A program made the position numbers and the translations under genes. Below are positions 2,686-57,659 of a stretch of 64,000 nucleotides of DNA, in pieces. Location of the stretch: positions 25,842,710-25,906,709 of the forward strand of contig NC_133218.1 in assembly GCF_040436345.1 (NCBI RefSeq), given 5' to 3'. The notes beneath the pieces were generated by a model, which made no database searches, was not told the DNA's origin, and saw only the letters and a list, made by a program, of their open reading frames with translations. The stretch comes from Pagrus major. Its lineage: Eukaryota; Chordata; Actinopteri; Spariformes; Sparidae. How positions within the stretch are numbered: position 1 is the first letter of the stretch; each line of letters starts with the position of its first letter.

Positions 2686-3074
2686 ATGATTCAACGGCCA
2701 TAATCACCGCAGTTAATTTCCTGCTTTAGTAGTAGTGACATTCCCAAAGGAAGTTGTAATCAATCAAATCACCACAATCTTATGTGATACAGTTGACCAC
2801 CAGTTGATAACCTGGCTTTGATCTACAATGCACTGATAAAAATGTTACCTTACTCCTCTTTAGTTTATCAGTCATTGAACTAATTGTACGTATTGAATGC
2901 TAAAAACCCAACATAAGACTTCTTATCTCATTTCCAAACGAGTATCCTTGTGCTAAATAGGTTTTCTCTATATAAATATTCGGGTTTGGCTTGTTTAAGG
3001 AGGAGGATGAGTCGTTTCACTGCAGATAACTACAATACCCACAATTCCAAGCAAGCGGAAGACCCAGAATATCA

Positions 3075-3084
3075 GTCACGTGAC
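3075..3084 (+). promoter_or_regulatory. slc38a7: CLEAR element (TFEB/TFE3 site) in slc38a7 promoter
   Basis: A perfect 10-bp palindrome, GTCACGTGAC, identical to the CLEAR consensus bound by TFEB/TFE3/MITF in lysosomal gene promoters. A second, weaker E-box copy (GTCACATGC, 3090-3098) follows within 6 bp. It lies just upstream of the presumed first noncoding exon of slc38a7, whose human product is a lysosomal transporter. Confidence 0.8.
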
Positions 3085-3099
3085 GCAGCGTCACATGCT

Positions 3100-3178
3100 C
3101 CTCCGCTTTGTGCTGGCTGCCAAAACACAGACTGTTCAGTCATTACCTGCCTGCGGTGGGGGCTGTTCAACACTGAAG
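3100..3178 (+). other. slc38a7: Probable 5' noncoding exon of slc38a7
   Basis: The stretch after the CLEAR elements is relatively GC-rich and ends in a plausible donor (ctgaag|gtactg, exon end 3178). Coding starts only at 4910, in an exon with a good acceptor at 4698 (tttcattacag), so a leader exon joined across a 1.5-kb intron is likely. The transcription start is not visible and the left border is approximate. Confidence 0.45.
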
Positions 3179-3851
3179 GTACTGCTCCCTATTATCAGCA
3201 TTTTATCCTCTTCGCACCACTTAACAGCGACGACATAACAGCGAATATAAATGATGTAGAAGTATTTAAATGTGCGGACTGTGTGGTGAAAAATGATCTC
3301 GCTTGTATTTTGTGTTTAGCTAGGTGTAACGTTTGCTAGCTAGCTATTGTAGGACGCAGAGTGACAAAGGGGTTGACTGCGTTGACAGAAGTTATTGTTG
3401 TGTTAATGAAAAGAAAAGAAAAGCAATACTCTAATCACATTAAAAGGTGAGGTGTTTAACCAGTGTTTAATGTTGGCAGCTGAAGGTTTGTCTGTGTTGA
3501 ATAAGCTAGCAGTAAATTGAAATGAGGTCAGCTGGACTTCATCAGCACCTTTTCTTATTTCCTGTAACCTTTGCTTTACTTATTCTACTACAGTTTCTGT
3601 TGATGTAAAGTCATTAGTGATTTAATGAGAGGCTCACCAGGCCTACTTTTCTCCAAATGGTTTTTTTTTATTGTTTTGAGATTTCTGTTTGTTCTCGAGC
3701 CCATGATCTTTTTTGAGGACATGTAACCAAACACAGTGACATCAGATAATTGTCAGGGTCTTGAAAACTAAAAATTAATGAAATTACCTTTACATTTTTG
3801 GCTTGTGTGTAGTGCTAAACCACCTCCTACTTGTGTTTTATCTAACAAACA

Positions 3852-4066
3852 TACACAACTCAAAATTAGTTAGGGATAGTGGGATAGTTTAGTGTTTCAC
3901 TTGATTGTTTATTCTGTGACATATCTGAATTGTTATTCTGTGTTTTGTGAATATTTTTGGTCCCCAAAAATAATGCAACACATTTCATTTGACGTTTATT
4001 ACATATCCATGCACATGCATATATGCACCCGTATCCCAATATCCCTAACTAGTTTTGAGTAGTGTA
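3852..4066. repeat. Mariner-like MITE, copy 1
   Basis: The element is bounded by terminal inverted repeats: TACACAACTCAAAATTAGTT at the left and its near-complement (AACTAGTTTTGAGTAGTGTA) at the right. It is flanked by TA, as in Tc1/mariner-type miniature elements. A second copy is at 17870-18057. The interior is AT-rich and noncoding. It lies in the presumed 5' UTR intron of slc38a7. Confidence 0.75.
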
Positions 4067-4909
4067 TATATCAGTATTAAAGTCGGCCAGTGTTAATGGG
4101 GAAATACTTGTGTAGCCGTTTGACTTGAGGCTCTACACGGGTCCCTGTTGTGCAATAACCAGACTGTTAGAGCAAAGTGAACAGTCTGACAAAAACTCCA
4201 CAACGAACCTTTTAACATACTCGCCAAGATCGTGTGAGATGGCAGTATGCAAGTTTCATGTTAGCCAATAAGAGCCTAATGTTGCACACTTGACAATGGA
4301 GGTGGGACATGCTCTGACATGGAAAATGTTATAATGAGCGCTATAATAGAGAAGCAACACACACCATGGGACACTGGAAGGACTTGAAAGCAAAAAAAGT
4401 ATTGCACACCGGCTTCATATGCATTTTTTTTTTTTTTTTAAGTTGGAATGACATTTTGACCTTCAAGCCTTCTTTGAGATCAACAAGGCCTGACTAACCT
4501 GCCTCTACTTTTCATATATTATTTATTCAGGTTAATTCCAACAGTACAGAAAATAAGTTCCTCACTGAAAACAACTCCAGTGCCTCACATTTATTCACAG
4601 TAATCCAAACAAACGTAACAAATGACTACTTTATATTGATTTACAGTGTGTGTTGGTTTGAAAGAAGTGTCTCTAAATGCAACAATATTTCATTACAGAT
4701 CACGAAACAGCTCCACCGCCACACTGACGCAGCTGGTGATCACCTTGAGAAACAACAGCTGTCTCCTGACTGTTGCGGAACTTCAGACACTGAACATAAA
4801 CTGCTACCACTGCTTCTACCTCTGATCAACTTCTCTGGATCCAGAGCGTTGGAGACTGATCTTCTTAAGTGTGTAAGGCTTGGCAGGCCAAGCTACAGCC
4901 TGTTGACGC

Positions 4910-7900
4910 ATGGCAATTAACACCGATGTGGAGGACTGGGGCGGAGTTGGGAGTAATGACTCTGGAGAAAGAGCGTGGCTCTTGCAGAGCCCCAGTGTGG
5001 ATTCTGACCGGCTTCTTGAGACAGACAGGAGGAGGAACGGGGGTGTGTCGTCATTTGGAGCGGTCTTCATTGTAGTGAACGCAGCACTGGGAGCAGGCCT
5101 ACTCAATTTCCCTGCAGCCTTCAATATGGCCGGAGGAGTAACTGCAGGAGTGATGCTTCAAATGGTGAGGAGATCCCAGTGAGGGATGATGAGGCACATG
5201 TTCGGTCTATAAACTCTTGCTGTAATGTGATAACTTGGCCTGCAACCCACAATTCTATTCATTATTTATTATGTAAAATGTCAATCTGATGACAAATGCT
5301 AATTAGACATTACTAGAGGCCAATAGAGGATATTTTAACTTTGGTATTTTTCAAACCACTGAAGTTTGCAGCCCTGAAACAGGCTGCAGTGTATTCCCTG
5401 CAGACAAAGTACATCCACTTAAAGTGCTTGTTGTTTTTGCCACTGACGGACTCAAATTGCCAGATGTCTGACAGCATTATGAAGAGGATCCCTACAGAGA
5501 AAAAACCTTTATAGCCAAGAGTAAAATTCCGCCATGTTGTTCTCACCGAAGCCACTAGACTCCATTTGCAGAAGCAGTAATTTTATTGCCATGAAACACA
5601 CTTCATTCTAACACTCCAGAAAAACAAAACCAAACACAAAACCTTCTTAGTTATTCTCTCCACTGTTCCAACAATCACCAACTCTGGTTTGGTTAAAATA
5701 AATACCAAATTTAATGTAATGGATGTGAAAATATTGTGATTTTAGATGCCGTTCATGCATCTAACGTGGTGGATTGAGGGTTCATTTCAACTAAATGAGA
5801 GTTGTTAATTGTTGGAACACTGGAAAGACAAATCAGGATGGTTTTAATGAGTATTGTTTAGTTTTTTTGTCAAGTTTGAATGACGTGTGTTTTACAATGA
5901 TAAAATTACTGTTTTTGCAAATGGAGTCTGGTGGCTTTTTCTGATCAAACAAAAATGACTTTATTCTTAATGAAAGCTTTTATCTTTGTAGGAATCGTGA
6001 CCACTTTGAACGGCAATCTGAGCCTGTCAGTGGCCAAATCAAGCATTTTAAGTGTATAGACTTGGATGGTGCACAGGTATTATATTGCAGCCACCCATTG
6101 AGCTAATGACCACCAACATATTATGTCATATAATGAGAGAGAAGCAAATATTTTTGGGTTTAAGAAAAGCTGAAAGGAAAAAAAATGAAATTAATGTTTG
6201 ATTATTTGATCTGGGCTCTAACGTATGTGCAGGCACACAGTGCTTGAGCTGATAACTGCTGACAGTCTGAGTGTATTTCCTGTTTCTGTCTTTTGACCAA
6301 CACAAAACTGCATTAAGACAATATGAACTGGAACTATAATGTGCTGCTTCCTGTTTCTTTTGTTTCAGTTCATGTTGATCTTCATAATCAGTGGACTGGT
6401 GATCCTGGGCTACTGCTCCAAGGTTTGTGTCTCTTCAGGACTACCAGATTCTTTGTTTTCATCTCTTACCGTTCCACTTGTTTCTCTTTCAACATGTTCT
6501 GCAGCCTTTTAAATCGGACTACTTTTCTTTCACATGAGTATTTTTCCTGCAGTAGTGGTGAAATAACTGGAGTAGCCTTGTGCAATAACTTGGGTCCGTG
6601 GTTGTATTCCTGATTAAATGTGGTACACTGCAACAAAGCTCAGACTTTCACTTCCTGATGGCTCAGACTTTTGCTTACTAGTTAAAACATAAAGGAGAAA
6701 CCATCCATCTAGGTTTGAGTCATTTGAATACATTCATTTTACTTTACACATGATATTTGTTCTGATCTAGAAACAGCCGAAGGATACTGCTTTAAAATGC
6801 ATCAATCAGCCGTATTCACCTGTAAGATGAACTTTGTGTTAAAGCACTTGGTTCCATGAGAGCCACTGACTTCATGTGTATGATGACTCAACAGCCCTAA
6901 AACTTTACTTGGGCTATAATAACACCTTAAACTGGAGATGATTCCAGTCAGCAGTGAGGCTCCTGCTGCATGTTTTCTTGTGGAGTGGAGAGTAATATCT
7001 GAGAGCAGCAATAAGACATATACACCAGTAAATTTCATCCTTCTTTATGGTTGGCAACTTATCTGATACCTTATTTGGACTCCACTCTGTGCTGTGTCAA
7101 ATCTTGAATCACATGAGCTGCATCAGCAGAAGGTTGTTTTTGGTTTTAACAACTGTCACAACTGTCAGCAAAGAAACGCAGAATGAAACCACTGTGGGCA
7201 CATGATTGAAAAAATGGGTAGCTGATGATTAGAGGACTGTTCCTCGATCATTACATTTCTAGTTTTTATTTTTGTCAGAATTTTAAGCGACGCTGGTGGT
7301 GTTTTATCGTTGCAGGGGAAAGTTTTCTTGGTATCATTTCGAGCCTCGTTAACAGATCAGCATTGTATAAAAGCCGCGGGTTCTGTTGAACATTGTCGTC
7401 TCAGCTGGTATATCCCCTCAAGGCCTCATATCTTAATGTATGTTAATGCACCATCTCACAACACATCCATCATTCCAAGCTGGTCAAAGAAACTGCACAA
7501 TGATTTTGATTTACTCCCAACATTTTAAAATGTAATGTCACAGGTGTGTGCATACCAGGGCCGACTATATGTAAAGAGTTGTTGTCATGTAATGTGCAAT
7601 GGTCATATAGCCACGGTACACATTTTATTTTTCAATTGGTGATTCAAATGGCTCTTATAATATACGCAATATTTCCTTGGACAATGTTTAACCTTATAGA
7701 TAAAGCTGTGTTTTTTGCCCTTTTTCATGGCTGTATTTCATAGAATAGCTGAAGAGGTACAGGAAAAGGGATGAGAGGGAGGCGGGGTGACATGCAGCAA
7801 GGGGCCATAGGTCAGATTCAAACCCTAGGCCTCTGCGGCGAGGTCACAGCCTCTGTGTACATGGGGCGCACACTCTACCAACTGAGCTACCATTGTGCTT

Positions 7901-10900
7901 GTTTAACAGTTTTCTCAGTGTTTTATTTCTATTAGACTAATTGAGTAGTCTACATTTAAACCTATCTTTCTGTTTACTTGTTTGGATCATCCCTTGTGTA
8001 TATATACATATTATAAAATGAATATCAATGATCTTCGCTCCTCGGACATGCAATATTCTGTTAACAGCTGTAAGAATATTCCAGTACCTCTCCTGCTGAA
8101 TCATTGTCCTCTAACTATCTCTAATTATCTGTCTGGTTTTTTTAGGTCAGCAATGAGAGCACATATCAGGAGGTTGTTCGAGCCACTTGTGGAAAAGTCA
8201 CCGGTGTCCTGTGTGAAGTAGCCATCGCTATCTACACGTTTGGGACCTGCATTGCTTTCTTTATTGTCATAGGAGACCAGCTGGATCGCTGTAAGTATAT
8301 TCACAGTGATAAAGTCAATACAGCCTCCCTATTTCTGTCTCCTGACAACAGACAAAATGCCATTTCCCAGAGCTTAGCTTTGTGTAAATGTCCTTACTTA
8401 TTGTTCTCTCACCTACATTCACATGGACTCATTATTATGCTACATTTTAGTGATCTGTTTGTTGTAAGCTGTAGTAGGGTTGCTAACCTTTTTAAAAAGG
8501 CAGTGCCATCATTGACGAGGGTAAAGAGCATCAAGGATGACACCAGTCAGCTTTTTCACTCAATAAACGTGTCCCTCATGTGACCCACTCGTGTACTGAG
8601 ACGCTGACAGTGTAGGATTCCTACTTCCAGGAAATAGACTGTGACCCTCCACCTCTGTCAGTCTTTTGAAATAAATGGAGAGGTTGTGACTTTAATTATC
8701 TACTTTGCTCAATCTCTTTCATGCGCACAGCAGTCTGCAGGAAATTTCCACGATGGCACTCCTTACTCTATACATTTACATTATCTCCTTCTGTCTATCT
8801 GTGCTTCTCAAAGTTTTTATCGTAATTCCTGTGTTTTGTTTCAGTGATAGATGCGATAGCTCATAGACAAGAGGGTGCAGACAGCTACTGGTACACTGAC
8901 CGCAAGTTTACCATCGTTGTTACTGCAGTCTTGATCATTCTTCCACTTTCCATCCCCAAAGAGATTGGCTTCCAGAAGTATGCCAGGTACAAATACTTAG
9001 GTTATTTTCTCACAGAGGATTAAAACAACATTAACCTTGTACAATAATCATGTCTGAGTTCTTGTTCTTCGTCATTGCAGTACACTGAGTGTGATGGGGA
9101 CCTGGTATGTTACCATTGTGGTCATTATAAAGTACATCTGGCCCGATAAAGAGATGACCCCAGGCTATGTTCCCCCCAGGTGAGCTCTGCTGCACACATT
9201 TCATGAACACTGCTCTTTAATGTATGCAGCTATAAGCTTTTTAACAACTTTTGATGAATCATTTTATCTTTGTCCACCCACTCATTCAAGCAGAAGCATC
9301 CACGTCGTCATGCTTTGCTTGAGTTGCTAAATCGTTGTGTTTGTTACAGTTCTGCTTCCTGGACTGCAGTTTTCAATGCAATGCCCACCATATGCTTTGG
9401 TTTCCAGGTATCTCTTCATTTGGTATCATTTGATATGCCTTTCTTTTGAACGGTTCAATATTGATTAACTTTTTTCGTCTGATCTTCTTCCTCCTGATCT
9501 CTCTGCAGTGCCACGTCAGCTGTGTGCCGGTGTTCGACAGCATGAGCAAGAAGGATATCAAACCTTGGGGAGTCGTCGTCACTCTCAGCATGATAATCTG
9601 TCTCTTCGTTTACACAGGAACAGGTATTATCAGCGTTTGCACTCGTTACTCACTGTAACCTGTCGATGACTCCTGCATGTATTGGCTTTTAATTACATTT
9701 AGGAAACTGCTTGTAAAGACGTGTTTGATTTTGATAACATTACCCAGACATGAAACATCTATGCAGGCTGCAAATCAGTTGTCGTTTCTAAAATTCAATA
9801 TATAATTACTTAATGTTTCAGTTCAAATTGCGCTGATAGCCGAAGTCCCCTATTGTATAGTGCTGTTACAAGTAAGATGGCTCGTGACCGGCTGTCAATA
9901 CTTCAATGCTTGCTGTGTTTTGTGTTTGATCAGGAGTCTGTGGCTTCCTGACGTTCGGCGCCAATGTCAGTCAGGATGTGTTGATGTCGTACCCCCCCAA
10001 TGATATTGCAGTCGCCATTGCAAGAGCTTTCATTGTCATCTGTGTCATCACCTCATACCCTATTTTACACTTCTGTGGCAGGTAAGAGACACACTTCTGG
10101 CATCCATGTTCAGCATACTGTTTCTCAGTCAGTTGTTAAGATTGTAATAAAGATTTTTAAATTGCACAACCTTAAAAATATGTTGATGTTTAAATATTAT
10201 AATATAGTTCTTCTACATAGTATTCGTCTCATGTATGAAATGTCTGCATCGTCACGGTGCTGCAATCTTATAAATGCATCTGCCGCCCACATCCATGTTG
10301 CTGTCTCACATCACACAACAGACTACAACTACCAAGTAGAATAGCGATGCGCTATGATTTACCTCATGCACAAACAAGCACACAAAACCTCACTTGACAT
10401 AAATAAGCAAGTCGGCAAAAAAAGCTGCTATTGCACAGTGTGCTACACACCTTGTATTACTTTACACATACAAGAATGCTACAGGTCAGTTGCATGCAGT
10501 GAAATGTACAGGTTTTAATAAGTAAGTATATTAAAAATTGTGGAAAAAAGCAAACTATTAGCTAGATAACTAGTATTAGAAAACTTAATCAGGAAAGAAA
10601 ACATGGAATTACATGTGATCGAGACAGTTTTCCTTATTTTCCAACACAGTCAATGCAGCATTTCCTCACTGCTCTCTGCTGTAATCGTGTGTCCTTCCAG
10701 GGCGGTTATCGAAGGACTTTGGCTGCGTTTCCAAGGCGAGCAAGTGGAGGTGTGTGTCCGTCGTGAGCAGAGGAGGAGGATCCTGCAGACGCTGGTGTGG
10801 TTTGTTGTCACCCTCGTCCTCGCCCTCTTCATCCCAGATATTGGTCGGGTGATCTCACTGATCGGAGGATTGGCAGCCTGCTTTATCTTTGTATTCCCAG

Positions 10901-11854
10901 GTAACACTTCCCTCATTCTTAGCAAGATCTCGGATTTCTGTGCAGTTCTAATATCATACTGTAACTTGTGATGTCTCTTTAACTTAACAGGTTTGTGTTT
11001 GATGCAAGCCAAGTTGTCAGAGACAGAAGACCGATCTGCAAGGTGAGATGCAGCTTATTCTCAGATCCCTTTCAGCTTCTCTGGAACTTCTCAAAAACAA
11101 TTACATTATAATGTTTGTCTCCTTGCGTCTGTAACAAGAGCTGGTAGCTCAGTGCTGCACTGTATTGACCCTTTGCTAATGTTTACTCAGGATGGGTGAA
11201 ACGGAGGACTTAAACGGATAACTTAAAGATGCATTATCACACCTTGGCCATTAGGGTGCAGAAAATCTTCAGGATAAGCTCCCACATTTTTTCTGTCTGT
11301 TTGCTGATGAGCAGGTAGTGTACAGTGAATCAGAGCTTGGAAACCAAAACAAGACTAGACGAAACGAGACTAGAGCTGCCACCATTAGTCGATATTAAAT
11401 TGATTGATTAAAATAATCTGCAACTATTTTGATATTAAATAAATTGTTAGTCACTTTTTAAGCAAAAATCCAAACAATCTCTGGCTCCAGTTTCACCAAT
11501 GTGAGGATTTGTTTTTTGTCACTGAATACTTCTGGGTTTTGATAGATTGATAAAAGAATCAGCAGACAAATCGGTAATGAAAAAATTAGTTGATGCCCTA
11601 AAAAAAAAAAAACAACTAAAACACAAATCTCCAGAGTTTGGTGTTAGTCTGTCATTTTGCTGCTTTCACATTAGAAACTTTTTTTCAGTGTCAACATAAA
11701 AAATGTTTAATGCAGATGTGATGATTTTCTTTGTTGGTCTCTGTGTTACAGCTGGCATGGATTGGTGGTCTTGGGTGTCGTCATGGTTACGATTGGAGCC
11801 TTCATCTTCGGCCTCACCACGACCAACTCCATTTATCAAGACGTCGTCAGCTAA
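4910..11854 (+). CDS. slc38a7: Sodium-coupled neutral amino acid transporter 7 (SNAT7)
   Basis: Eleven coding exons join in frame: 4910-5164, 6369-6422, 8146-8290, 8845-8986, 9081-9179, 9350-9407, 9509-9623, 9934-10081, 10701-10900, 10991-11042, 11752-11854 (1371 nt, 456 aa; the human protein is 462). SLC38A7 is an amino acid/auxin permease family transporter that in mammals exports glutamine and asparagine from lysosomes. A hydrophilic N-terminus of about 48 residues precedes the first membrane segment with the family hallmark [12 protein letters not shown] (residues 57-68). Alternating hydrophobic segments then run to the end, with matches to the conserved [11 protein letters not shown]-like loop (here [10 protein letters not shown]), [20 protein letters not shown] and [10 protein letters not shown]. 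The start at 4910 is chosen because the first conserved exon opens there and no longer frame exists; its Kozak context is poor (C at -3, G at +4). The 5' UTR part of this exon begins at 4699. It sits beside got2 as in mammals and ends tail-to-tail with the lysosomal carboxypeptidase gene. Confidence 0.95.
7755..7899 (-). repeat. tRNA-derived SINE (minus strand)
   Basis: On the minus strand the element starts with a tRNA-like A box (TAGCTCAGTTGGTAGAG), followed about 60 nt on by a B-box-like GGTTTGAATCT. A tail containing CCTTGCTGCATGTCACCCC follows, typical of an abundant perciform SINE. The spacing and the lack of a cloverleaf rule out a functional tRNA. It lies in intron 2 of slc38a7. Confidence 0.8.
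11373..11600. repeat. Teleost interspersed repeat with ATTAGTCGAT arms (copy A)
   Basis: The element starts with GAGCTGCCACCATTAGTCGA and ends with ATTAGTTGATGCCCTA. The ends are roughly complementary (GAGCTGC...ATTAGT versus ATTAGT...GCCCT), and the middle reads CACTTTTTAAGCAAAAATCCAA. I recognise this as a very common fish non-autonomous DNA element whose ends read ggctgcaactaatcgat. It lies in the last intron of slc38a7. A second, more decayed copy is near 29500. Confidence 0.65.
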
Positions 11855-13916
11855 AAGGAACATTTTTATCGTGGACAGTGGACTCCTTGTTAGAGACAGA
11901 GGGAGGGGTGCTTGGCTGTGTGCTGCTATTCTGAACTGCTGGATAAGATGAAGCATCTCATGACACTCATTTTAAACCTCTCTGGCATGTCACATCCCTG
12001 CTCCATGTTGAGTTAGAGCTCCACAGGTCTTTACTCCATCAGGTAGTCATCAGAGAAAACCCCGCAACGCCAAGTAACTCCGGACACTTTGCCTTTTATT
12101 TGATGTAAAGTTTTAATTGCATGTTTTATGTTTTTATGATTTTATGATTTTAACTTGCAGTGGAACCAGTTTTTGGCGGTTTAGCCGTCCCACAGGGGCA
12201 CAGAATGACTTCCCTGTCTCTGGACCCTGTATGGACGACACACTGTCCTGTTTACAAGAGCTGAAGGACTTTGTACAGAAAGGTCTTACAATCAAATTGA
12301 TTTAAATGATGAAATTGTACCAATTTGTGTATTTTAACTTGCACGTTAAATGTTTCTTGTTGAAAATAACATGCAGTGGTTTCCAGGTCTAATCCAGGTC
12401 CAGACTTTAAGTTGACGCTGCTGTTAGTTTGTCAACATATTAAATCTATCAGACAGGTTTGCATCGTTAGCGAGGTTTTATCTGCAGGGCTGGGCATGTG
12501 TTGTTGGTTTAATTTCAGTCAGTACCTCTTAATGAGTTGAAAAAGTTTTTTTTCAGCTATTTTGGCAAGGCAAACTAATTTTACATTTTAACACTTAGGA
12601 AATCATGAGTTATTTATTTTCTTACATATTTTCTAAAAGTTAAGAGACGTACTATGACGATGATTCTATAATTGGCTTTAAGGCTGTCATTTTTATTCAG
12701 ACAAGGTTACAAAGCTATGTTCATGTAAGCCTGCAGGCCTTTTCAAAAGATTAGTTACCTTCAGACAACCAGGGTGTCCGAGGTGAGCAGCGACTCCACA
12801 TTCAGGATATGTCAATTCCTCAGTGGGTTTAAAACGAGACGGACTTTGAATGTATGCAAAACATGGATGTAACCTACAAAGAATTCAGTTTGTACATAAT
12901 TTACAGGAAACACTCGCTCTGGGTACATAGACCAGAGACAACTTGTCAAACTGAGGATTTATTTACTTGAATCAGTACGCACCACTGCAGATGTTTCTAG
13001 TTTTGTTTTTAAACTTAAGACCAAAGTTTGAGCTTTTGTTTTTTTATGCGGCAATATTCATTCTACTGAACACTAATTAAAATGTTCATAATCACAATTA
13101 CTGAGATCATTAAATTGTATTGCAAGAACATTTAAAATATTCAAGCGCTTACAATGAGTTAAAGACTAAACAGGGAATTAAATCCCTGCTTTGGTTTATT
13201 TAATCACTATCACTAATAATCTTGGGTACGTTACGAGTTATGATCTATAATCAAAGTGAGGTTCAAGACTTGACAACCTTTGTTTTTTTTACTGTTATTG
13301 TATTATAACCAAAAAGTGTTTTATTTGTAGTCATGAGGGACAGAATGTAAAAGGGATTGCATTAGTCACACTGTTGGACTAAATACTTTTACTGTTAAAT
13401 TTAGAGGAAGTGAAAGAAGCGTTAGTCAAAACAGTACTGCTGTCTGGTCTGTACAAAGATTTTAGAGACTCAATAATTGTTGGAATACAAAGACCTTGTA
13501 GTCTAATACCTTAAGGTTTGTTGTTTAAACCATTTGTGTCAAATCTCTTTTTTAACCTTTAGGTGCTGCAGACAACCGTTTGTCTGGTCATGAGTGAATG
13601 TTGGTTGCATTTATGATTTCTGTCTTAACATGTATATTTTCTTTCCAAGTTAATCAGATCATGTGACCCTGTTGTCTCACACATACAGCCGACTTGCAAA
13701 TATGAAGTTCATGGAAAGTTTTTAAATGGAAATACTTAACAGTACTACCTGTGATGTACCAATAAATGAACTACGATCAAAGCTTGTGAATAAATCTGAC
13801 AATCTGTATGATACTGGCAGTTCTTTAATAAAACACATGTGAAGCTGCAGTTTTGATCAAGGCAGTTTGAGCATTGTTAAGTCCTGTTTCGTAACTTTCC
13901 TGCAAATATCAATAAA
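11855..13916 (+). other. slc38a7: slc38a7 3' UTR
   Basis: About 2 kb of AT-rich sequence without a coding frame follows the TAA. Canonical AATAAA hexamers are at 13761-13766, 13827-13832 and 13911-13916; any of these could end the transcript. The opposite-strand signal of the next gene is only about 110 bp further on, so the two convergent transcripts end almost together. Confidence 0.6.
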
Positions 13917-14028
13917 AAATCACTAACACCAAGATTCAGCTTTACATCAGTGCCACAGAAATTTGCTTCATTTGATCATTTAAAGTGCAGTTTGAGTATC
14001 AGGCTGAGGACAATTTCTGTTTTGGCTT

Positions 14029-14034
14029 TTTATT
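14029..14034 (-). other. Candidate polyadenylation signal of the cathepsin A-like gene
   Basis: TTTATT on the plus strand is AATAAA on the minus strand, about 600 nt after the carboxypeptidase stop codon. It lies roughly 110 bp from the last slc38a7 signal on the other strand, consistent with tightly packed convergent 3' ends. Confidence 0.45.
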
Positions 14035-14628
14035 CAGCACATTAGATATGAAATGAAACTGAAAGTCAAAGTGTTGACTTTTAAGCAGGGTTCTCATTTC
14101 TGTTGAAGGACTTGTACCCTTTTATACATGCATAGTTCCCCAGTTTCAGGACAATAATCTCATTAAGTCAAGGCCACAAAGAAGCTTTTTAAAGCTACAC
14201 AGAACTCAGCAGACGCTTTTCGCTTACTGAAAATCATCCTGAAGGCACAAAACCTCAAACGTGCAAGAAGTGAAGCTGGCTGGTAACCGAATAAATTATT
14301 TTAGTCACATTTGTTGACGTGTACAATTATTTGTGTTCTTTTAAAACTGAGAGACTGTGTAAAAAAGGGTTTTAACTCCTACACTGTCAACCCAATATAG
14401 ATTTGAACATTGTCAGAGCTCGTCATTGGACTTACATTGTTTCATTTCAAATCCAATGTGATGCAAAGCAAAGCCACTGCGTCCCTCTCTAAATACTCAG
14501 ACTGCACTGCAGGTACGAACAACACAAATGATCAGAGTAAGTGCCCGAACAGTCCCTTTCCCTCCAAAATCATCTTCCCTGAGAAAATGTACATCTAACA
14601 AGTGAGTGCAGGTATCTGACATTTTGGC

Positions 14629-17600
14629 TTAGTAGGAGCCATTTGTGAGGAAAGACTGGAACATGTCGAAAGCTGGACCTGGAGCCCACTGAGGAACCAT
14701 GTGACCTGCACCCTGAAACACACAGGACAGCAGTACCTCACAATAACGCAACCATATCAAAGTAAAACAGGACAATTAAAGAACACACTGATGGTTACCT
14801 TGACTGTCAGGAACGTGAGGTTTCCAAACTGTTGGTAGAAACCAGCAATCTGGTGGTCAGAAATCCATTTCTGGTACTTAGTGGTCTCCTGAGAACAACA
14901 TTTATTGTTAGGAAAAGTTTTTTGAGGTTGGAAAATAATATAATTTTATAATCTTTTCTAAAATGAGTTCCTACCTTCAGGCCAAGATCCTCCACAAACC
15001 ACTGGTCTCCCAGGAAGTTGCAGGCCATGTCGGTGTCTCCGTTGTAGACGAGCCCCCGCAGGCCCAGAGAGAGCAGCTTCAGATACACGTCCTTCATCGT
15101 TGCATACAGGGTGTTGTATTCCATGCCAACTTCATCACTACAACAAAAAGAGTTCATTATGATCAAGATCAACATGTCCCTGGATCTACCTAAACTGCAC
15201 CGACAGGATGGGAAAATACCTCAACTACAAAACTACAGTTAGTCAACCTAATTTCAAGATTGATACATGAACGGATTCAAGACAGCCGTTTAATTTACTA
15301 CTTTAACTACTTCAAATGTTAAAAACAACAGTTATTAAAAGCAAAAAGAAGAAGATATTGTCAGAGCATAGAACAGTCTGGAGTCTACTATTTTAGGCAT
15401 CAAATTTCCTGTTTGGTCCAACACGTGTTGATAGGTGTACATTTCTCCTTCAGTAATTGTTTCAACAGCAGACAGAGACAGATTTTTTTCTAGCAATGCC
15501 AACTGCTCATGCAATTTCATACAGTATTTCAGTACTTTATACATTTTATCCTTACTCTTGTCATAATATCTAGCAACCGTTACATGTTTGACAAACACCT
15601 TCACATGAAAAACAAGCTGCATTTATATAATTGTATTTATACTGTATATAGGGTACTTCTCAGACAGAAGGAACCATTTCTATTGCCCCTTTATGTCATT
15701 TATTTTTTATCTACATATGTTTTCATTGATATTCTGATTGTGAAGTCATTAAATAACCCAGACCATGATTATGGTTTCTCTATCAGGCTAATGTATCAGA
15801 AAAGATTGAAATTACACAACATATCCAACCACACGCTCAAGAATTTTCAGCCCATCATGCAAATGAAGGAAATGATAAATGACGCTGCAAAGAAATGCTG
15901 AGTGAAGTTATTCTTGCGACAGTCTCTCTCTGACTTTTAAAAGTTAATGGGGAAGTAACAGATTATGAAAAGGGAAATACTTCTAACAAATGATGACAGT
16001 TGCTTGTGTTCCTGTTGTTGTTCAGACCTTCAATAAAGATCTCCAACTTAGCTAGATGGTGAATCAGAAAACAAAATATGAAACTTTTTCTTCACTCCAG
16101 TATAGTCTAAGGTATTAGACTACAAAGACTGAATATCAATGACTTAAAGACATGTAGTTATTACCTTGTACTGTTGCTTGCAGGAGCAAATGAGCCGCAT
16201 TGTTATTTTGCAACTTTATGTCTCCAAACGTCACACTGTCCTTGTCGTCGACTACAGGCAAATACCTGACATCACATTCATCTGATTACTTTCATTATTT
16301 TGCTGTAACATACCTGCACAGGTCCCATGGTGGCAGTATGTCTGGTATGTGTAAGGCTTTCCTCACGTCGCCTCTGTTCAGCCAGTTCATCTGAGCCGTG
16401 CTGTTGATGCAGGGAGGGACTATACCCAGAGACACTGAGGAAGGCACTCGATCTGAAAACTTCAGTCAAGATTTTTAGCATCAACAAGAAAATGAGAACA
16501 TGACGCACAGGTGCATGCAGCACTTGTTCGTGGAGGGAAACACTCACTTTGTGGGTGAGCCAGTGTTTCCTGTAGTTCTTAAACAGGTGAGTCATGGTCC
16601 TCTCATAGCCTTTGTGGGATCTTCTGCCACCCTCACAATTCAAGTACAGGGCATACTCATTAAGTCCGCTGTCATACACAATACCAAAGGCCACACCCAC
16701 CTGAAGGGAGACAAGGAAGAAATTAAATTTAATGAGTTCATGAGTAACACAAGAAAGACCAGCTGAATCCTAAAGTAATAATGCACATGTACCAGAGTCT
16801 TGCAGGTCTCTGAACTGGAGTTGTAGAAGTTACAGCCTCCCTTGTCGCAGCAATTTAAATTCAGATCACGCCACAAACTGCACATAAAACACAGGTTTAA
16901 AATGACAAATCACTCTATTGACTACATGAGTAATATGTATAATATAACATGTATTACTTCTTGGCTTGTTCACAATACTTAAATGTCTTTATATCGATGC
17001 AGATCAGTAGCATAATCATTGCTGAATGGTACATTTCTATAGCACCTTTCCAGTCTACAGACAGCTCAAAGCACTTTACAACACTTGCTTCACTACAAAC
17101 AAGCTTCCTCCACCACAAAGTGCCACTTACTCTTCGCCAAAGAGGCCGTGGTAGTAGCCGAAGTAGATCAAAGATTGCTCATTGAGAGCAAAGCTGCTGA
17201 TGCCATTTCCCACTGCAAAGCCCTGAAAACAAAATATACTCAATATAAATCACACTGCTTTATTGCAAATGTCTTTTCCTGAAGGGTAAAATATCATCTC
17301 TTCAGTCATCAAACTGCTTTATGGTGGTGCTCCTGATGGTGCTCATCTAAGGCTCAAGATAAGCTGCATGAAGCATCTCACCTTGAAGTTGATGGTTGCA
17401 GCTCCAGTAGCCACGCGGAGGCTGAGGGTTGGTGCATAAATTCCGCCGTAACTTTCCCCAAAGATGAAGAACTCATTTTGAGCAAACTTGGGGAACTTGG
17501 CAAAGAAACTCTGCAGGGCTCTGTAGTTATCCTCAGCGACCTGAGAGAAGAAGTAGTGAAATGGAAAGGCTTCTTCTAAAGTCTACTTCTCAAAATGGAG

Positions 17601-19182
17601 TCAGTCACCGTCTGAACTCACCTGGTCATCATCGGTAGTGTAGTTTTTGTCATCGGAGTAGGAATATCCCACTCCTGCAGGAGATTCTACATACAGCACA
17701 TTGGCAATCTTGTTCCAGCTGAACGGGTTCTCATACAGCGTGGCACCGTTATCATTCACCTGAAAAGGAAACTCCTCAATAACTATTCAGAGTTTCGTTT
17801 AGTCAGTGTACAGCAGGCGTGGGACGATAAGAAATGGCAATGATCATGACACAAGTATCCTGACCCAAATACACTACTCAAAAATTATATTTTTTATAGC
17901 CCCAAAGCTGAGCTGAAGCCGTATCACAAACAACCATTTATTCAGAACTTAGACACGCATGACTCTCCATGAGTAAAACCATTAAAGCAACAAATATACT
18001 GTTGGGCAACATATATGCACCCATATCCAAATATCCCTCACTAATTTTGAGTAGTGTCATTGCGATTCATGATATTATCCCGATAATGAAAACGTGCTTT
18101 TAACTCCAACACTGAAATATGCTGGAATCACTTTAGTTACCTTTTTAAAAATTGTATTCTATCAGATGCAGTGAAGGATAAATAAATAGTGGGCACCTCA
18201 CCTCCATACTGTTCTTTAGTTTAGAATCTTCTAGTATCTAGTATTTACGCACATCTGATTTAAATTTTGTAGGGAATTCAACAGACAAACCAAACTTCAG
18301 CCATGGTGACAGGCTTGAGGTTTTGTTAGTAGAAGGGTGCAGCCTCCTTTTCGAAACAGTATAGGACTGTATGTTATCGAGCTAGACAGTTTTTTCAAGC
18401 CACTTATGAGTGATATTCACGATTATCCTGATAATGGAAACTCACCACAAGCAACTTATCCTGAGTGTTATTGATCACAATCTGCAATAAAACTTATTCT
18501 CCCATCCCTAATGTACAGTTACTCATTAAATTAGCATTCTCACATGAAACGGTCCATTCTCTGACAGGAATCCATCCAAGGAGCTGCAGCCTGGGCCTCC
18601 ATTCAGCCAGAGCACCAGAGGGTCTTTGACTGGGTCCCTCTGAGAGGTCACAAACCTGCAGGGGATGAGGATTAGATGAGATGGGGGTTAGATAATGCAT
18701 GACTTCAAGAAATGTCACACATAGGCCTACCTAAAAAAAAAAAAATACAAATTTGGTCTCATTCAAAATTACTTATGGCACTCCAAGTGTGAGATAAATT
18801 GGCAGTGTTAGCAATGAATTTTCATATTACACTAAAGTTTGTTAGAAACATAAAATACAATTACTTTCTAAAACAAACAAACAAAATCCCCTCCGTATTT
18901 TTGAATTTACTGACAATATAACCTCAGTGTGCAGGGTCAGAGCAAAATTTAGGCGGAGCAAGGTGGGGCTTATCGGGAAGCTGCAGAAAGCCAGTCTGTG
19001 ACTGTTTCTTACCAATAATGGAGAAACTTTCCCGGCCGAGCCTGGAGGTACCCCGACCACTGTCGGTAGTTGGGTTTGAACATCATGCCTGGCAGGTAAG
19101 TCACCTCATCAGGGGCGTAATGAGCCCGACAGCCGAGCTGAAACACGGCCAGCAAACACACCAACAACCCGCCGGCGGACAT
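14629..19182 (-). CDS. ctsa: Cathepsin A-like lysosomal serine carboxypeptidase (protective protein-like)
   Basis: Eleven exons in transcript order: 19182-19013, 18655-18544, 17759-17622, 17540-17382, 17222-17131, 16877-16793, 16700-16548 (16544 for the in-frame donor), 16452-16314, 15137-14975, 14888-14799, 14712-14629. With the 16544 donor this is 1389 nt and 462 aa (human CTSA 480). It is an S10 family serine carboxypeptidase; CTSA trims C-terminal residues in lysosomes and protects beta-galactosidase and neuraminidase. A signal peptide ([20 protein letters not shown]) is followed by the oxyanion motif LNGGPGCSS (about 74-82), the nucleophile in GESYGG (Ser170), the acid in [10 protein letters not shown] (Asp387) and the base in GAGHMVP (His439). 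The whole triad is present. The segment between about residues 253 and 350 is more diverged than expected of a strict CTSA ortholog, so this may be a teleost ctsa-like paralog. The promoter carries a perfect CLEAR palindrome. Confidence 0.88.
16541..16550 (-). promoter_or_regulatory. ctsa: Tandem splice donor (GTGAGT / GTGTTT) that decides the frame
   Basis: At the 3' end of exon 7 the minus strand reads cacaaa-gtgagtgtttccc. Using the strong GTGAGT donor ends the exon at 16548 in phase 0, but the next exon (acceptor ttttcag, exon end 16452) needs one carried-over base. The overlapping donor 4 nt downstream (exon end 16544) gives phase 1 and restores the frame, adding Val and a split Asn codon. 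Confidence 0.5.
17870..18057. repeat. Mariner-like MITE, copy 2
   Basis: It has the same terminal repeats as the element at 3852-4066: TACACTACTCAAAAATTAT at the left and ACTAATTTTGAGTAGTGT at the right. The internal stretch CATATATGCACCCATATCC also matches copy 1 (gcatatatgcacccgtatcc). The right-hand TA is lost. It lies in intron 3 of the carboxypeptidase gene (counting from its ATG, the 18543-17760 gap). Confidence 0.75.
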
Positions 19183-19303
19183 CACTGTGCAACCTCACAC
19201 TACACAACAGCTGGCATTAATTTAAGACGAGGTTTCTTCTTCCTCTTCAGCTGCAGCTCCGCGTGAACAAGTCGAATCTAACGTCATATGACTGCGTCTG
19301 AGG

Positions 19304-19313
19304 GTCACGTGAC
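19304..19313 (-). promoter_or_regulatory. ctsa: CLEAR element (TFEB/TFE3 site) in the cathepsin A-like promoter
   Basis: A perfect GTCACGTGAC palindrome 122 bp upstream of the carboxypeptidase ATG, with a second palindromic E-box (GTCATATGAC, 19283-19292) between it and the start. CTSA is a known member of the TFEB-regulated lysosomal network in mammals. Confidence 0.82.
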
Positions 19314-20084
19314 CAGCGCCTGACTCCACCCGGAAGTCCCAAACTTTTTTCTTTCTTTCTTTTTTTTTTTTTTAGTGGTTTAATCCTCGTCAGAAGCAGG
19401 TGTTTTGAGCTGTAATCAATCGATGTGTGATTGAAAGCCTACACAATCGTTTGATATTGAAATTAAGATTTACTGAACCATTAAGCATATATTCTTTTCT
19501 TATTTCTTTTATTGACATGGTCAATCTTTTCCCATTTACAAACATTATTATTAGAATTTCCTATGTTGTATGTTAATTACTTGCACCATCAAATATACAT
19601 GTGTATTAAGGTTATTCATGTGATACAGATTTCAGGCTAATCTGGTGTTTAGAGGCTCTTTCAAGTTTTCCTCCATCTTTTGTTCCTCCTGATAAAAGTT
19701 TTTTTTTTCATTAAGATTTTCTCGACTGGAATCAAGGCTCTACACTCCTAGATAGGAGTGAAGATTGTACAGGTTCACTGTACAATATGTACAGTGAACA
19801 ACAAGCCCACTGAGGCTCTGTGATTTGTGGCAATAAATACATTTGATTTGCTTTGATTGCAAGTTCCACTAAACAAGTCAGTAAAACTAAAAAAAAAACC
19901 TCAATGGAAAAACAAATGGCAAGAGAAAGTTAGAAATAGGCTAAATAAGGTGATTCACAATCCTCTGAGAAATCATATTCACAATATAATGGAGATTTAT
20001 ATAGCAGTTAATGTTATTGGTGTACAGGGAATACAAATAATACATTCTTTACAAACAACTACCAAACATAGACACCCTGAGCCT

Positions 20085-35908: not shown

Positions 35909-38900
35909 ATGAAGATGGCAGAGAAAGGGCCAGGGATGGTCACTCTTCGATTCACAAGCATCATACTTTGTACTGTTTTACTGGGACAAGGATCCCCAGA
36001 GAACACAGGTGAGTGCACCCCCAAAACATGTTGCTAAATACAATATTTGTGTGTTTATTAAAAACATATTTAATACATGATGCTGCCTCTAATGGGACTC
36101 TTTCAGGAGGTGGTAAAGAGGACAGCAGAAATGCCATTCTTAAGGAGATCATTTCAAAATGGAGTACAGGAAGTGGTTGGAGTCCTCAGAAAGCTCCTCC
36201 AGAAACAAACGAGGACCAGCCTGTGCACCCTTGGGTGAGGAATATCATGGGGAGCCTAAAAACACTTTTTCCAAACAAGAACCTGCCTTCTTTAAACAAG
36301 CCAATTGACAGGCACCGTCTGTCTGGCTTCCTCTACAACATCTCTCTGTACCTCCAAGAGATGGGTGCTGAGCTGGAGGAGGCACCAGCCGAGCCAGATG
36401 AGGATCATCTGTGGGAGAAGGTGCTGCATTTCTTTCTCCAGTCTGAAGGGAGTGCTGCGCTGAACCAGTGGAACGGCCGGGTGCCACCGCGACCCAGCGT
36501 CAGAGTGCAGGACTGGTTTTTGTCCCTGAGGGGCAGCCCTCACTGGGACTGGCTCCTGGGGCTGCTGCAGAGTCTGCTCAGTCTATCAGAGCGTCAGCCC
36601 AACAGGCCCCTCTTGACTTACTTGTCTCAGAACTGGAGGACAGTGAGCGCTGTGCTGGAAGCTTCGCTTCAGGCTCTGATCAGTGGGACTTATGGCCAGG
36701 CCAGCGCAGGCCTGCAGGGCTTTATCTGTGCTCTAAAGGGTCGTAGTGACTGTGCCTTCAATGTTAGCTGGCTTCAGCAGCTGCTGCGTTTCCTAGAAAC
36801 CCGCAACTGGAAGCCTGTGGTCAGTTTACACCCAGCAGGGGAAGGTGCTGAACACAGTAAAGCCTCAAGTGCCTTTGGACGCTTTAAGCCCTTCAGCTTG
36901 CCTCCTGAGGCCTTAAGGCAGGATGGCTTTTTTGTAAATGCATCTATGGATGACATGATGGCGACAGAGGATGATCCAGACTTCATGCAAAGTTTACTCC
37001 TACAGGCGTTGTCACGCTCAGGCGGAGGAGAGCGAGGAGGCCACCTGGCACAGAAAAATCTAGCTCTGGTGCAGAGTTTAGATGGGCTGAGGAGGGGCCT
37101 CCTGCACAGGGTGGGTAGTTCTGTCTACGACAACCTGAGGAAAAAGGTGTCACGAGTAACCATGGCGCTGCTTGATGATGTCAGCACTCTGGTGGATGTG
37201 CCACAGCCCAACACTCAGGGCCGGTGCTCTGTTGGTGAGTATGTTGAGCAGTTAGCTTCACAGGATATTTGCACAATCAAAACAGCTATGAACTCTTTAA
37301 CTTTGGACAGAAAGCTGACTTGAAAAGTGTTTAAGTTACATGCAGTCATACACACAAGCTGACTATATAATCGGTATATATTTAAGAAAGAGCAGCTTCC
37401 AGCCATAGTTCACGTGGCAGATGCTGCTGTGTGTAGATGCACTCTCACATTTGGATGCTTAGCTTCAGAAGATGACTCTGAGATAAGCAATGATATTATA
37501 AGTTTTAATACCTTATTCATTAAACAACATGCCAGTTCAAACATATTTTATGTAAAGAAGTAAATCATGCATTATTTAGATTGCATTTAATGTTATTCAT
37601 CCAAGATAAACCCTTGTTAAGAGCCTCCTGAGCTTGGCCCTGGTTTCACCTGAAGGATCCAGGAGAGACAGTGACAGTGACTGCCACTGCTTTAAAATCT
37701 TTGTAATCATCCTGGTCGATGAAAGCATCTGTTGTTAGCCCGGCTAATCTCTTTATCCTCTCATTGATGTCAGTAACATTATATCTTGGGCATTGTTAGC
37801 TGAGCTGCACTGTTACATCAGGCACGTACTATAGGAGTCTCCACTTGCTTTTTCCACCACTCATACACTTTGATTTTCTGTTAATATTTGCTTTTTGTTT
37901 GTCTCTTTGAAGGCGACCTGAGACAACTGATCTTATGGTAAGATATTTTAGGAATATGACCACATGTTTGACAGTAAATTGTTCGCAAAAACAGAATTCT
38001 ACCACTGTTCTGTCCGTGTAGGGGGATAAGAAATAACGTGACGTGGAACACTCAGGCTTTGGGCGTGATGTCCCAGGGTCTCCCGAGCTCACTCCCATTC
38101 CTGTCCTGCCCCTCCACTGAAGGAGATGAAGTGAGATCAAAAACAGCCCCCTCTTCAAGATCAACCTCCAAACAAAACCGCCTTCATGAACTCTCCACCG
38201 CACCTGGTCGCTCGCAGTTCAACCAGCCACAAACAGGGAAAACTAGAGAGAGCATCGACCTGCAGAAAGAGATGGAGTTCTCCACCTCAATAGAAATCCT
38301 AGAAGCAGCGTGTAACGAGTCGATCCCGGGCTTGACAGGCGTCTCCAACTTCACTGTGTTCCTCTACTGCAAACTGTTTGAAGGGGAGAACGGCTCAGTT
38401 GATCCCGCAGTGGCCCAGATGGGGCTCGACCTGCACGCCACGTGCTCGGATGCGGCTTGGTACCTGTCTGCTGCTGAGGAGGACTTCCTTTGGGTTCATG
38501 TCTGCAGTGAGTTCTTCGCCCATGAATTCAACAACACGGTGTGTGCCAACTCATCTTTCTGGCTGCAGAGAGCACATCAGGTAATGAATTGCTTGCAGTG
38601 TTTTCCGGGAACTTTTTGCTAAATGTCTGTGGCATCTGTTGGTCCCTTTACTTCATTTTAACTTGTCCTTACTTTACTATTTGCAGGCTGCCTTGACAAA
38701 GGACTACCATTTTTTTAACCAGACAAGCATAGACGAGCTGTGTGTGCAGCTGTCGGTCGAGCCGATAGGAAGTCCAGAACTTGACGAGAACTGTCTGGCC
38801 CAGTTGGGCAGCAGGTCTCTCAGTGCCCAGACCTTCAGACATTGCTTTCTACCCAACAACTCCGTCCTGATCTCAGCTTTGTGTGGGAGAGAGTCCCCAG

Positions 38901-39589
38901 ACTCGCACCAGTCCTTGCCAGAGGGCAGCTGGGCCGCGGCTTACTGCTCCAAAATACCAAACCTCTCCCATGTTGACACCATTGAGGAGACTTGCCAGTA
39001 CAAGGACTGGGCTGTGCATCATTTCACCAACTCCACTCTTTTGGAGCTCTGTGGGCAGACACATGGATTGAGAGAGTACATCTGTCTAAATGCCACACTC
39101 TACCATCGACTCCTGAGATCAATGCCTCAGTTTGCTGATTTCTGTGCTGATCTGCAGGCAGAGCTGGAGGGCAGGAAGTGTCTGCTGCAGAGGTTTTTTG
39201 ACATGCTCCCAGCGCCGTATGAGTTTGACACCTCACAACTGTGTGTGGACCCGGCTCCGCTGCTGGTGGAAGTCGTACACAAGCTGAGTGTGTGTGAGGT
39301 GGAGGGAGGGGAGCGTGAAGGGTTTTTAGTGGCGCTGGGATATGTGTTGCGTGTCCTGGATTTCATGGTGGGCCTCTCTTCGGGATTGGACGAGGGGGAA
39401 AGAGAGGCGAGGCAAGGTTTGGGCCAGGCCATCCTCCTCTCCACTCTCCTCGACAACACCTCCTGGGCCGCACTGCAGCCAGAGGCCTCCATGAGCGTCC
39501 TTCACACTGTGGGAGTCTTCCTCCGCAGAGAGAGGAACGCCACCCTCAAAGAGGACCTGCTGAGTTGCTTCAGTGTAAGATGGCTGAGT

Positions 39590-39646
<57 letters not shown>

Positions 39647-42600
39647 TAGAGAGTGAATAACTTGTTTGTGCTGTTACACCAGCCTGTCTTGTGGGACCTC
39701 ATCCAGCGGGACGACAACTCATCTGCTCTCAGGGTTCTGCTGCAGGTACCGGCCTGTGCAGCTACATTCACATTTCAATCTTTCAGATCAGCTCACTGAA
39801 CTTTACACTGAGGGGAATCACTTTATCTCACCAGGAGTACCTCCAGATGCCAAGAGACAGCATTCGCACGCTTGTGATGTCTGCAGAAAAAGATGCTGTG
39901 AAGAGATTCCTCTCACATATGCATCAGAGTTGGGACCAGCTACATGTTGAAACCGACCAGGTTTGTTCTTAAAGGGACAGTTCACCCCCAAATCAAAAAT
40001 ACATATTTTAACTCTCACCTGTAGGGCTGCTTATCCATCTCAATTGTTTTGATGTGAGATGTGAGTTTTGGAGATATCAGCTGTGGAGATGTCTGAGACA
40101 CTCGTGACAGTGCGGGATGTACACATTATTGGCTGTGCATTACATTACAAGCTGTGTGCTGCTATTTTAGAATTAATTAATGCCTTTCCTGTCGTATAGT
40201 GTAAGACTATCAAGCAGTGACGTTAGCTAGGAAGTGGTTTAATGCTAACATTAGCTGCTGTCTAACAGAAGCTAATGGTTGTCCCTCGAGATCTTTACTA
40301 TCCTCTTATCAGTTGCTTATTAATGGGGAAGTGGTGAAATAATATCATTTTGTAAGATTACCTACATTTATATGACTTGCAACATACAAAACAGCGGCAT
40401 CATCCCAGCATTCAAGCTTCCCACACCGAACGTGACATCAAGTTAAAATGGCCGCTGCGTGAATATGGTCTATAAGTGACACTTTTTATGAAGCACATTT
40501 TGCAGGTATAAGATCTTTTTACAATGTACTGTGCCTCTATGCCTATAGTTCTGTTCACACTCTCCTGTGCTGTCTCTATTTTACTTGAATCTATGTCACG
40601 GCCCATGCATAGTTAAAGAGGGCCAGACTGAATACACATCAGTTTCTGTCCTGCTCTATTGTTTTCTCTGTCAGGCCTCTCAAAAAGAGCTGCAGGCCAT
40701 GGAAACAATGACCGCTGCTTTCATCCATAAGTTCCCCCGAGTGACCCCAGAACTGTTCGTCGACCTGTCTCAGTTCATTCCCTTCATGTCGGTCTCTGAC
40801 ATCATGAGCTTCCCAGCCTCCCTGATAGTCAACGACAGCGTGTGAGTTACTGACCTACGAAATGATCGTGTTAAGTTTAATATACAGTAACTTTTCCTGA
40901 CGGTAACAGCATCTGTGTTGCTCTCCAGGTTGACAGCAATTCGTGATCACAGCTCAGGCATGAAGTCCCTGCAGAAAAAGGCCTTTGTAAAACGACTCCT
41001 GCAGTCGAGTGTGCTGGGTGATGTCCCTACGTGGCCACCGTACTTTCTCAGTTCCATCCTCCCACTTCTACCTTACCTCCCAGTTAGTCATTTTCAGCAG
41101 CTGACATCACAGCAGGTAAGAGGCCGATCTGCTAATTTTGAAAGACATAACATAATTGCATTATCGCTTTCACAGATGTTAGTCATCACAGACATGATCA
41201 GGTGATTATTCAGGCCATGGATTGGGGATATTACATATGTACAGATGACAAATTAAGGGAAAAACCTAAATACATGAGTTGGGATACTTCCATGCGAGTC
41301 GTAAATACCACAGGAAGGTTTTATGGCCTTCACAGTCATCAGATCTCATTTCAGTTAAGGCCTTATAGGAGATTTAGGTGCTCCTCCACCACCACCACCG
41401 TGGCTGGAGGCATTATGTTTCGGAGTTGTCTGTCCATCTGTCCATCCCAGTCTTGTAAACCCGATATCTTAAGAAAGCCTTGAAGGAATTTCTTCAAATT
41501 GGGAAGAAAGCAACAACTTGAACTCAAGGATGAACTGATTCGAATTTGGTGGTCAAAGGTCAAAGGTCACTGTGACCTCACATAACATGTTCTGTGAACA
41601 TAACTCAAGAATCAATATGCTAATTATGACAAAATTTCACACAAATGTCTATGGTCCGGGTCCACATAGCATTTTTTTCTGAGTAAACTCCAACCACTGG
41701 TCTTAATTCTAATTTCCTTTAATTTGTCACTAATCTGTGATTTTTGTTTTTAGCTTGTTTCAACTTTTAATCTGTTGTCTTCATTAGCTCACTCCCCTGA
41801 TAGAGTTTCTAGGCAACGGCAGTCTGGATGGTGTCCGGGGGCGCCACGTGCTCCGGACCCTCTTCAACAAGAAGAAGAACCTGACCAGTGATAACATTCT
41901 GAGGTGGGACCGAGATACCTTCAGTTAATGTTCATGTTTGTCTGTCTTTATTAAGAGTTATCCAACATTGTTCACATACAGAGCTCCTGCGTTCACTGCT
42001 GCTTTGCGTTCGGTACTATGAACAAGTTTAATCAACTGAGAGCATACTTGACAAAGCTGTTCCTGTCCTGACGACATGACCTCTTAGGGAGTTTAGTTAT
42101 TGATATACAAGATTGTGACTGATTGGCATTGACAAGTTAGATCATAGTTTGTTTATGTATTGATTTGTGTGGTTTTATATAGGAAATAAAATTGTGTTTG
42201 CAGGTTAGGAGTCCTTACATGTTACCTGGATCCAGTGGACCTGGGTTCATTTCTTCAGGACTCAGCTGCGTCTTTAGCTCTCTGGCAGCAGCTGGCTCAG
42301 TGCATGTCCAAGGGCTTCATCAGTGACAGTGGCAGGGTAAGCACTACTTGTTCAGTAAATCTTCTTTAAACCACTGACATCCTCATCATTTTTTCTGTCT
42401 GTGTTTGTTTGAGCTCTGCCCGCAATGTTTGACTAACTGGGCCGATTTGTGTCTGATGGACAGTTGTCCTCTTGGTTGATACCAGCCGTTCAGAAGCTGA
42501 ATGTCAGCAGCATGGATCCTTCAGACCTGTCTGCCTTCACTGGTCTGTTACCTCAGTTAGGAGCGTCCTTCCTGCTGTCACTCCCCTCACAAAAACTCCT

Positions 42601-57600: not shown

Positions 57601-57644
57601 AAATCTGCCACCGCCTCAGTGTCAGGCTGCTATACCGCTGGTGA

Positions 57645-57658
57645 CCAGCAGGTGGTGG
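57645..57658 (+). promoter_or_regulatory. CTCF-like motif
   Basis: CCAGCAGGTGGTGG fits the CTCF core CCASYAGRKGGCRS with a single difference (T for C at position 12). It stands at the edge between the AT-rich spacer and the CG-rich promoter region. Confidence 0.4.
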
Positions 57659-57659
57659 T

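Follow-up and report, generated by a model that had tools for sequence, protein, structure and literature searches.

Two exact CLEAR-type palindromes at the predicted 5' ends of a slc38a7-like and a cathepsin A-like gene in Pagrus major

Analysis of a 64-kb stretch of Pagrus major DNA (64,000 nucleotides, hereafter the window) reveals two exact copies of the 10-bp CLEAR consensus palindrome, GTCACGTGAC, one at the predicted 5' end of a slc38a7-like gene and one at that of a cathepsin A-like gene. As judged from sequence, both are probably CLEAR elements of the ordinary kind, in which an E-box is flanked by TCA and TGA, and would belong to the core promoters of two genes of lysosome type; we put the probability of this reading at about 0.7. 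We infer the transcription starts, the exact name slc38a7, the identity of the factor, its binding and the induction of the genes. The two sites are as follows.

3075–3084, no strand assigned: GTCACGTGAC, exact CLEAR-type palindrome where the slc38a7-like gene is predicted to begin
19304–19313, no strand assigned: GTCACGTGAC, the other perfect copy, with 131 bp from its start to the downstream start codon of the cathepsin A-like gene

Palindromes and other E-boxes in the window

The preliminary description had reported two copies of GTCACGTGAC, and both were confirmed, one per predicted gene 5' end. The 64 kb contain no third copy and no site differing at one position, and 100 dinucleotide shuffles of the window yielded no exact copy. 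When up to two mismatches were allowed, 18 matches were found against a shuffle mean of 16.6; degenerate matches of this kind, being near the shuffle level, were rejected as a signal. TCACGTGA is also confined, in the window, to the two palindrome positions.

The palindrome had further been said to mark these two genes and nothing else, and this holds for the perfect palindrome, as a small test with only six 5' ends recognised by eye in the window. No CACGTG was seen at the other four in the stretches examined. By eye, these four belong to an E2F-type gene, a coiled-coil gene, a stereocilin-type gene and a CpG island.

The stereocilin-type gene is long, extending over approximately 35912–53945 (Pfam Stereocilin, E 6.3e-10, one exon). 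The CpG island, at 57601–58500, contains no coding frame that could be named by eye and may mark the start of a gene running beyond the window. A search of the whole window with Rfam gave no matches at the gathering score.

The bare E-box, CACGTG, occurs seven times in the window, which is approximately the chance number. An alternative is that the palindromes are general E-boxes, serving mainly other bHLH-Zip or bHLH factors (USF1/2, BHLHE40/41, MYC/MAX or MLX) in a house-keeping promoter role, with MiT/TFE input minor. We consider this unlikely. The letters of a site cannot separate TFEB/TFE3 from USF and BHLHE40-type factors, but the TCA/TGA flanks are present on just two of the seven CACGTG motifs, and these are precisely the two at the slc38a7-like and cathepsin A-like genes. 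The E-boxes of USF and BHLHE40-type factors are not known to have a particular tie to lysosomal genes.

The preliminary description had also placed a second E-box-like site by each palindrome. Both are present, downstream of the palindrome; they start 15 and 21 bp from its start and carry three and two mismatches to the consensus, respectively.

The slc38a7-like gene and its 5' end

2971–2978, plus strand: TATAAATA, possible TATA box, from its letters
3090–3099, no strand assigned: GTCACATGCT, second E-box-like site, beginning 15 bp from the palindrome start and differing from the CLEAR consensus at three positions
4910–11854, plus strand: slc38a7-like coding region, 11 exons, 456 aa, Aa_trans transporter (hand model, GT–AG junctions)

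The predicted protein matches Pfam family PF01490 (Aa_trans) with an E value of 4.2e-56. Comparison with solved chains gave only two matches, PAT1 and SLC38A9, both weak. The name SLC38A7 is our assumption, taken from the preliminary description and the got2-like neighbour, with Pfam giving the family only. The lysosomal class of the gene depends on its name and is presumed likewise. Immediately upstream, at 490–618, lies the last exon of what we take to be a got2-like gene, with a Pfam match below the cut-off. GOT2 and SLC38A7 adjoin in human too.

The palindrome lies approximately 95 bp before the donor of a putative non-coding first exon (GT at 3179, by eye). If the possible TATA box TATAAATA is used, the palindrome would be approximately 70 bp inside the slc38a7 transcript. 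The second site, GTCACATGCT, keeps the TCA flank on one half, like an asymmetric M-box. A further element, ACTACAATACCCACAATTCC (3029–3048, plus strand), presumably resembles the ZNF143/SBS core-promoter motif. An ATG-started open frame of 57 codons (3007–3177) runs through the predicted first exon and spans the palindrome; it may be due to chance or may be an upstream frame.

The cathepsin A-like gene and its 5' end

14629–19182, minus strand: cathepsin A-like serine carboxypeptidase coding region, 11 exons, 463 aa (hand model, GT–AG)
19283–19292, no strand assigned: GTCATATGAC, second palindromic E-box-like site with a CATATG core, two mismatches to the consensus

The predicted protein is a complete serine carboxypeptidase (PF00450, E 1.8e-130, residues 31–460), and the best PDB chain is 7kdv, lysosomal protective protein (E 3.2e-145), with identity at 222 of 437 aligned residues. 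All of the six best solved chains are lysosomal protective protein. Alignment to 7kdv shows a full S10 domain with the Ser, Asp and His catalytic motifs, and GAGHMVP is present. Judged by sequence, this S10 carboxypeptidase is most similar to lysosomal protective protein. The gene families named in the preliminary description, slc38a7 and cathepsin A-like, are borne out by Pfam and PDB at the level of an Aa_trans transporter and an S10 carboxypeptidase.

GTCATATGAC lies 21 bp start to start from GTCACGTGAC, downstream on the strand of the cathepsin A-like gene, and keeps both flanks around its CATATG core. This core is not known as a standard MiT/TFE site, E-box or M-box. Upstream of the palindrome is CCGGAAGT (19330–19337, plus strand), which we take to be an ETS-type site.

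Chance expectation and spacing

Under a uniform model, 0.061 copies of GTCACGTGAC are expected per 64 kb, and the figure of approximately 0.06 given earlier agrees with this. Markov models of orders 0–4 give 0.021–0.034 and order 5 gives 0.11, and simulations of orders 1, 2 and 3, with 400 windows each, produced no window with two or more copies. The whole genome contains 1110 copies in 785,883,843 bases (785.9 Mb, 25 contigs), or 0.090 per 64 kb, beside which the earlier figure is somewhat low; the reversed letters of GTCACGTGAC occur 2139 times. At the genome rate, the Poisson probability of two or more copies in a 64-kb window is 0.0038.

The positions at the genes can be considered in the same way. 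For two random CpGs (1000 in the window), the probability that each of two centres, 3130 and 19240, has one of them no more than 150 bp away is 4.4e-4; weighting by length instead of by CpG gives 4.4e-5, and both figures are affected by the centres having been picked after the sites were known.

It is very unlikely that one or both palindromes are functionless in this species and due to chance. The genome rate lends this explanation some weight: approximately 25 pairs of neighbouring palindromes within 16,229 bp, the separation seen here, are expected by chance genome-wide. Spacing is thus only modest evidence, and the argument for the palindromes is their position at a gene and the class of that gene, rather than the distance between them. 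Against chance, both palindromes are situated at predicted gene 5' ends, and none of the 49 gaps among the 50 sites listed on contig C1 is 16.2 kb or less, the shortest being 22 kb.

The spacing also bears on the possibility that the two neighbours constitute a co-regulated domain, in which lysosomal proteolysis and glutamine export are held together by selection. The genes are convergent neighbours with a common element, their palindromes 16.2 kb and their coding ends 2.8 kb apart. Against this, palindrome pairs as close as these are among those expected by chance, and human SLC38A7 and CTSA are on different chromosomes, the gene in the window being cathepsin A-like by sequence. We regard such a domain as highly improbable. 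The preliminary description had presented the two genes as convergent functional neighbours. Convergent adjacency is seen in the window, whereas the coupling of amino-acid release to glutamine export finds support in that adjacency only.

Palindromes elsewhere in the genome

The first 20 palindromes listed on contig C1 (L005–L024) were taken in listed order as a sample. They are mostly away from recognisable promoters, which again lends weight to chance, and an exact copy does not suffice to identify a lysosomal promoter. A scan for genes (one strand, approximately 5 kb each) found no Pfam family at L006, L016 or L018 and one homeodomain at L024, so that no lysosomal gene was seen beside these four within that scope; L005, L007, L008, L017, L020, L022 and L023 were left out of the scan. 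From printed frames, by eye, L009 appears to adjoin a MARK-like kinase, and L010 and L019 appear to be in mobile-element reading frames.

L011–L015 (G000:C1:2800876–3029519) are five near-identical stretches of at least approximately 300 bp, near position 5000 of each listed sequence and within 229 kb of one another. This indicates that a locally duplicated sequence carries the perfect CLEAR palindrome. An interspersed repeat was also considered, but the closeness of the copies on C1 speaks rather for local duplication.

CpG context was evaluated as a mark of functional palindromes and rejected, since the flanks of 4 of the 20 palindromes pass the GC and CpG cut, no different from 60 of 300 background pieces. 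The slc38a7 site (GC 0.41) would itself fail this cut.

A second E-box-like site within 45 bp is present at two of the 20 sampled palindromes, L021 and L024. The gene next to L024 is the homeodomain gene, which is not lysosomal. At L021 (G000:C1:5795832, 4968–5009), GTCACGTGAC and GTCATATGAC are 32 bp apart and follow the order seen at the cathepsin A-like gene; the palindrome starts 61 bp before the by-eye start codon of a lysosomal alpha-mannosidase. The assignment of this gene comes from one exon, which scores 122 bits with PDB 1o7d, 70 with the jack bean enzyme and at most 42 with mannosidase II. L021 is an unplanned replicate, in which one further lysosomal gene has the same kind of arrangement, and the presence of this pair at the alpha-mannosidase gene is a further point against chance.

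In the 264 kb examined (the window and L005–L024), GTCATATGAC occurs twice, each time beside GTCACGTGAC at the start of a lysosomal-type hydrolase gene, in identical order and with the two starts 21 bp apart in one case and 32 bp in the other. This could represent a composite CLEAR code in this fish, in which GTCACGTGAC followed by GTCATATGAC 20–35 bp toward the gene marks lysosomal hydrolase genes, but we consider this decidedly doubtful. The pair was noticed post hoc at two genes, and the presence of a GTCACGTGAC had been the reason for choosing 200 of the 264 kb, so that the composite may be due to chance. Among the matches listed in a literature search, GTCATATGAC was not found with TFEB, MITF or TFE3, and CATATG was found in one.

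Candidate transcription factors

Published work bears on the factors that could act at these sites. GTCACGTGAC is described as the CLEAR element of lysosomal promoters, to which TFEB and TFE3 bind (PMC7815692). Such elements tend to occur in clusters, mostly no more than 200 bp from where transcription starts (PMC11262230). The sites in the window share with those of the MiT/TFE network (TFEB, TFE3, MITF) the exact consensus and the position at a predicted 5' end, together with a related but weaker site nearby and genes of probable lysosome type. They differ in that they are known here from the DNA letters only, and in that the second site at the cathepsin A-like and alpha-mannosidase genes has a CATATG core.

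General E-box factors bind letters similar to GTCACGTGAC. In the Lamp1 CLEAR stretch, USF2, MITF, BHLHE41, USF1, SREBF2, SREBF1 and ARNT2 all score above TFEB, and this favours the view of the palindromes as general E-boxes, MITF being itself an MiT factor (PMC11262230). In a CLEAR box, MITF contacts the T at position −4 on both halves (PMC6355916), and this T is provided by the flanks of the palindromes, which argues for MiT/TFE factors.

Expression of SLC38A7 in mammals provides evidence on both sides. One report on human kidney tumours and silenced cells names SLC38A7 in a set of 28 targets of TFEB/TFE3, and its expression falls on silencing of TFEB or TFE3, a result that speaks against a minor role for MiT/TFE input (PMC10165358). 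The two cases have in common the named gene, a glutamine transporter; the human case concerns expression, in those tumours and after silencing, whereas the fish case is a sequence element. The starvation response of mouse Slc38a7 is mixed and to that extent favours general E-boxes. In the study concerned, the mRNA rises on complete amino-acid starvation in a mouse hypothalamic line, Slc38a7 is lowered on partial starvation in primary mouse cortex cells, and the protein is unchanged at 5 h in the hypothalamic cell line (PMC5952004). For VPS35-knockout cells, in which TFEB is known to be activated, a depletion of lysosomal SLC38A7 is described, and the passage available on the CLEAR genes that are raised names neither SLC38A7 nor CTSA (PMC10227043). 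The terms slc38a, ctsa and cathepsin are absent from the available main text of a paper on zebrafish tfeb/tfe3 (triple) knock-outs (PMC12225984), and the literature search did not find SLC38A7 together with 'CLEAR element'. Control of SLC38A7 by TFEB/TFE3 is already reported in human, and the perfect site in the slc38a7 promoter is a new instance.

The CLEAR/TFEB reading of the preliminary description is thus supported in part, as regards the gene families, the positions of the sites, the human SLC38A7 target (PMC10165358) and the alpha-mannosidase parallel, whereas the choice between TFEB/TFE3 and another bHLH-Zip factor is not decided by the letters. In view of the assumed name SLC38A7 and the poorer match of the second sites to the consensus, we have set our confidence in ordinary CLEAR elements slightly lower, and that in chance slightly higher.

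Proposed mechanism and implications

If both palindromes are ordinary CLEAR elements, MiT/TFE factors (Tfeb, Tfe3 and possibly Mitf) would move into the nucleus under conditions such as starvation or inhibition of mTORC1. Each palindrome would then be bound by a dimer, perhaps aided by the weaker neighbouring site. Transcription of the slc38a7-like and cathepsin A-like genes would be raised separately, each by its own element, and their neighbourhood need not matter.

If this is true, the TFEB/TFE3 lysosomal network would reach the gene for the fish lysosomal glutamine exporter via a named DNA site, and a change of ten bases would be enough to test a human link based on expression. If its association with two lysosomal-type hydrolase genes is true, the companion GTCATATGAC would extend the CLEAR code slightly, in a way open to checking in any fish genome.
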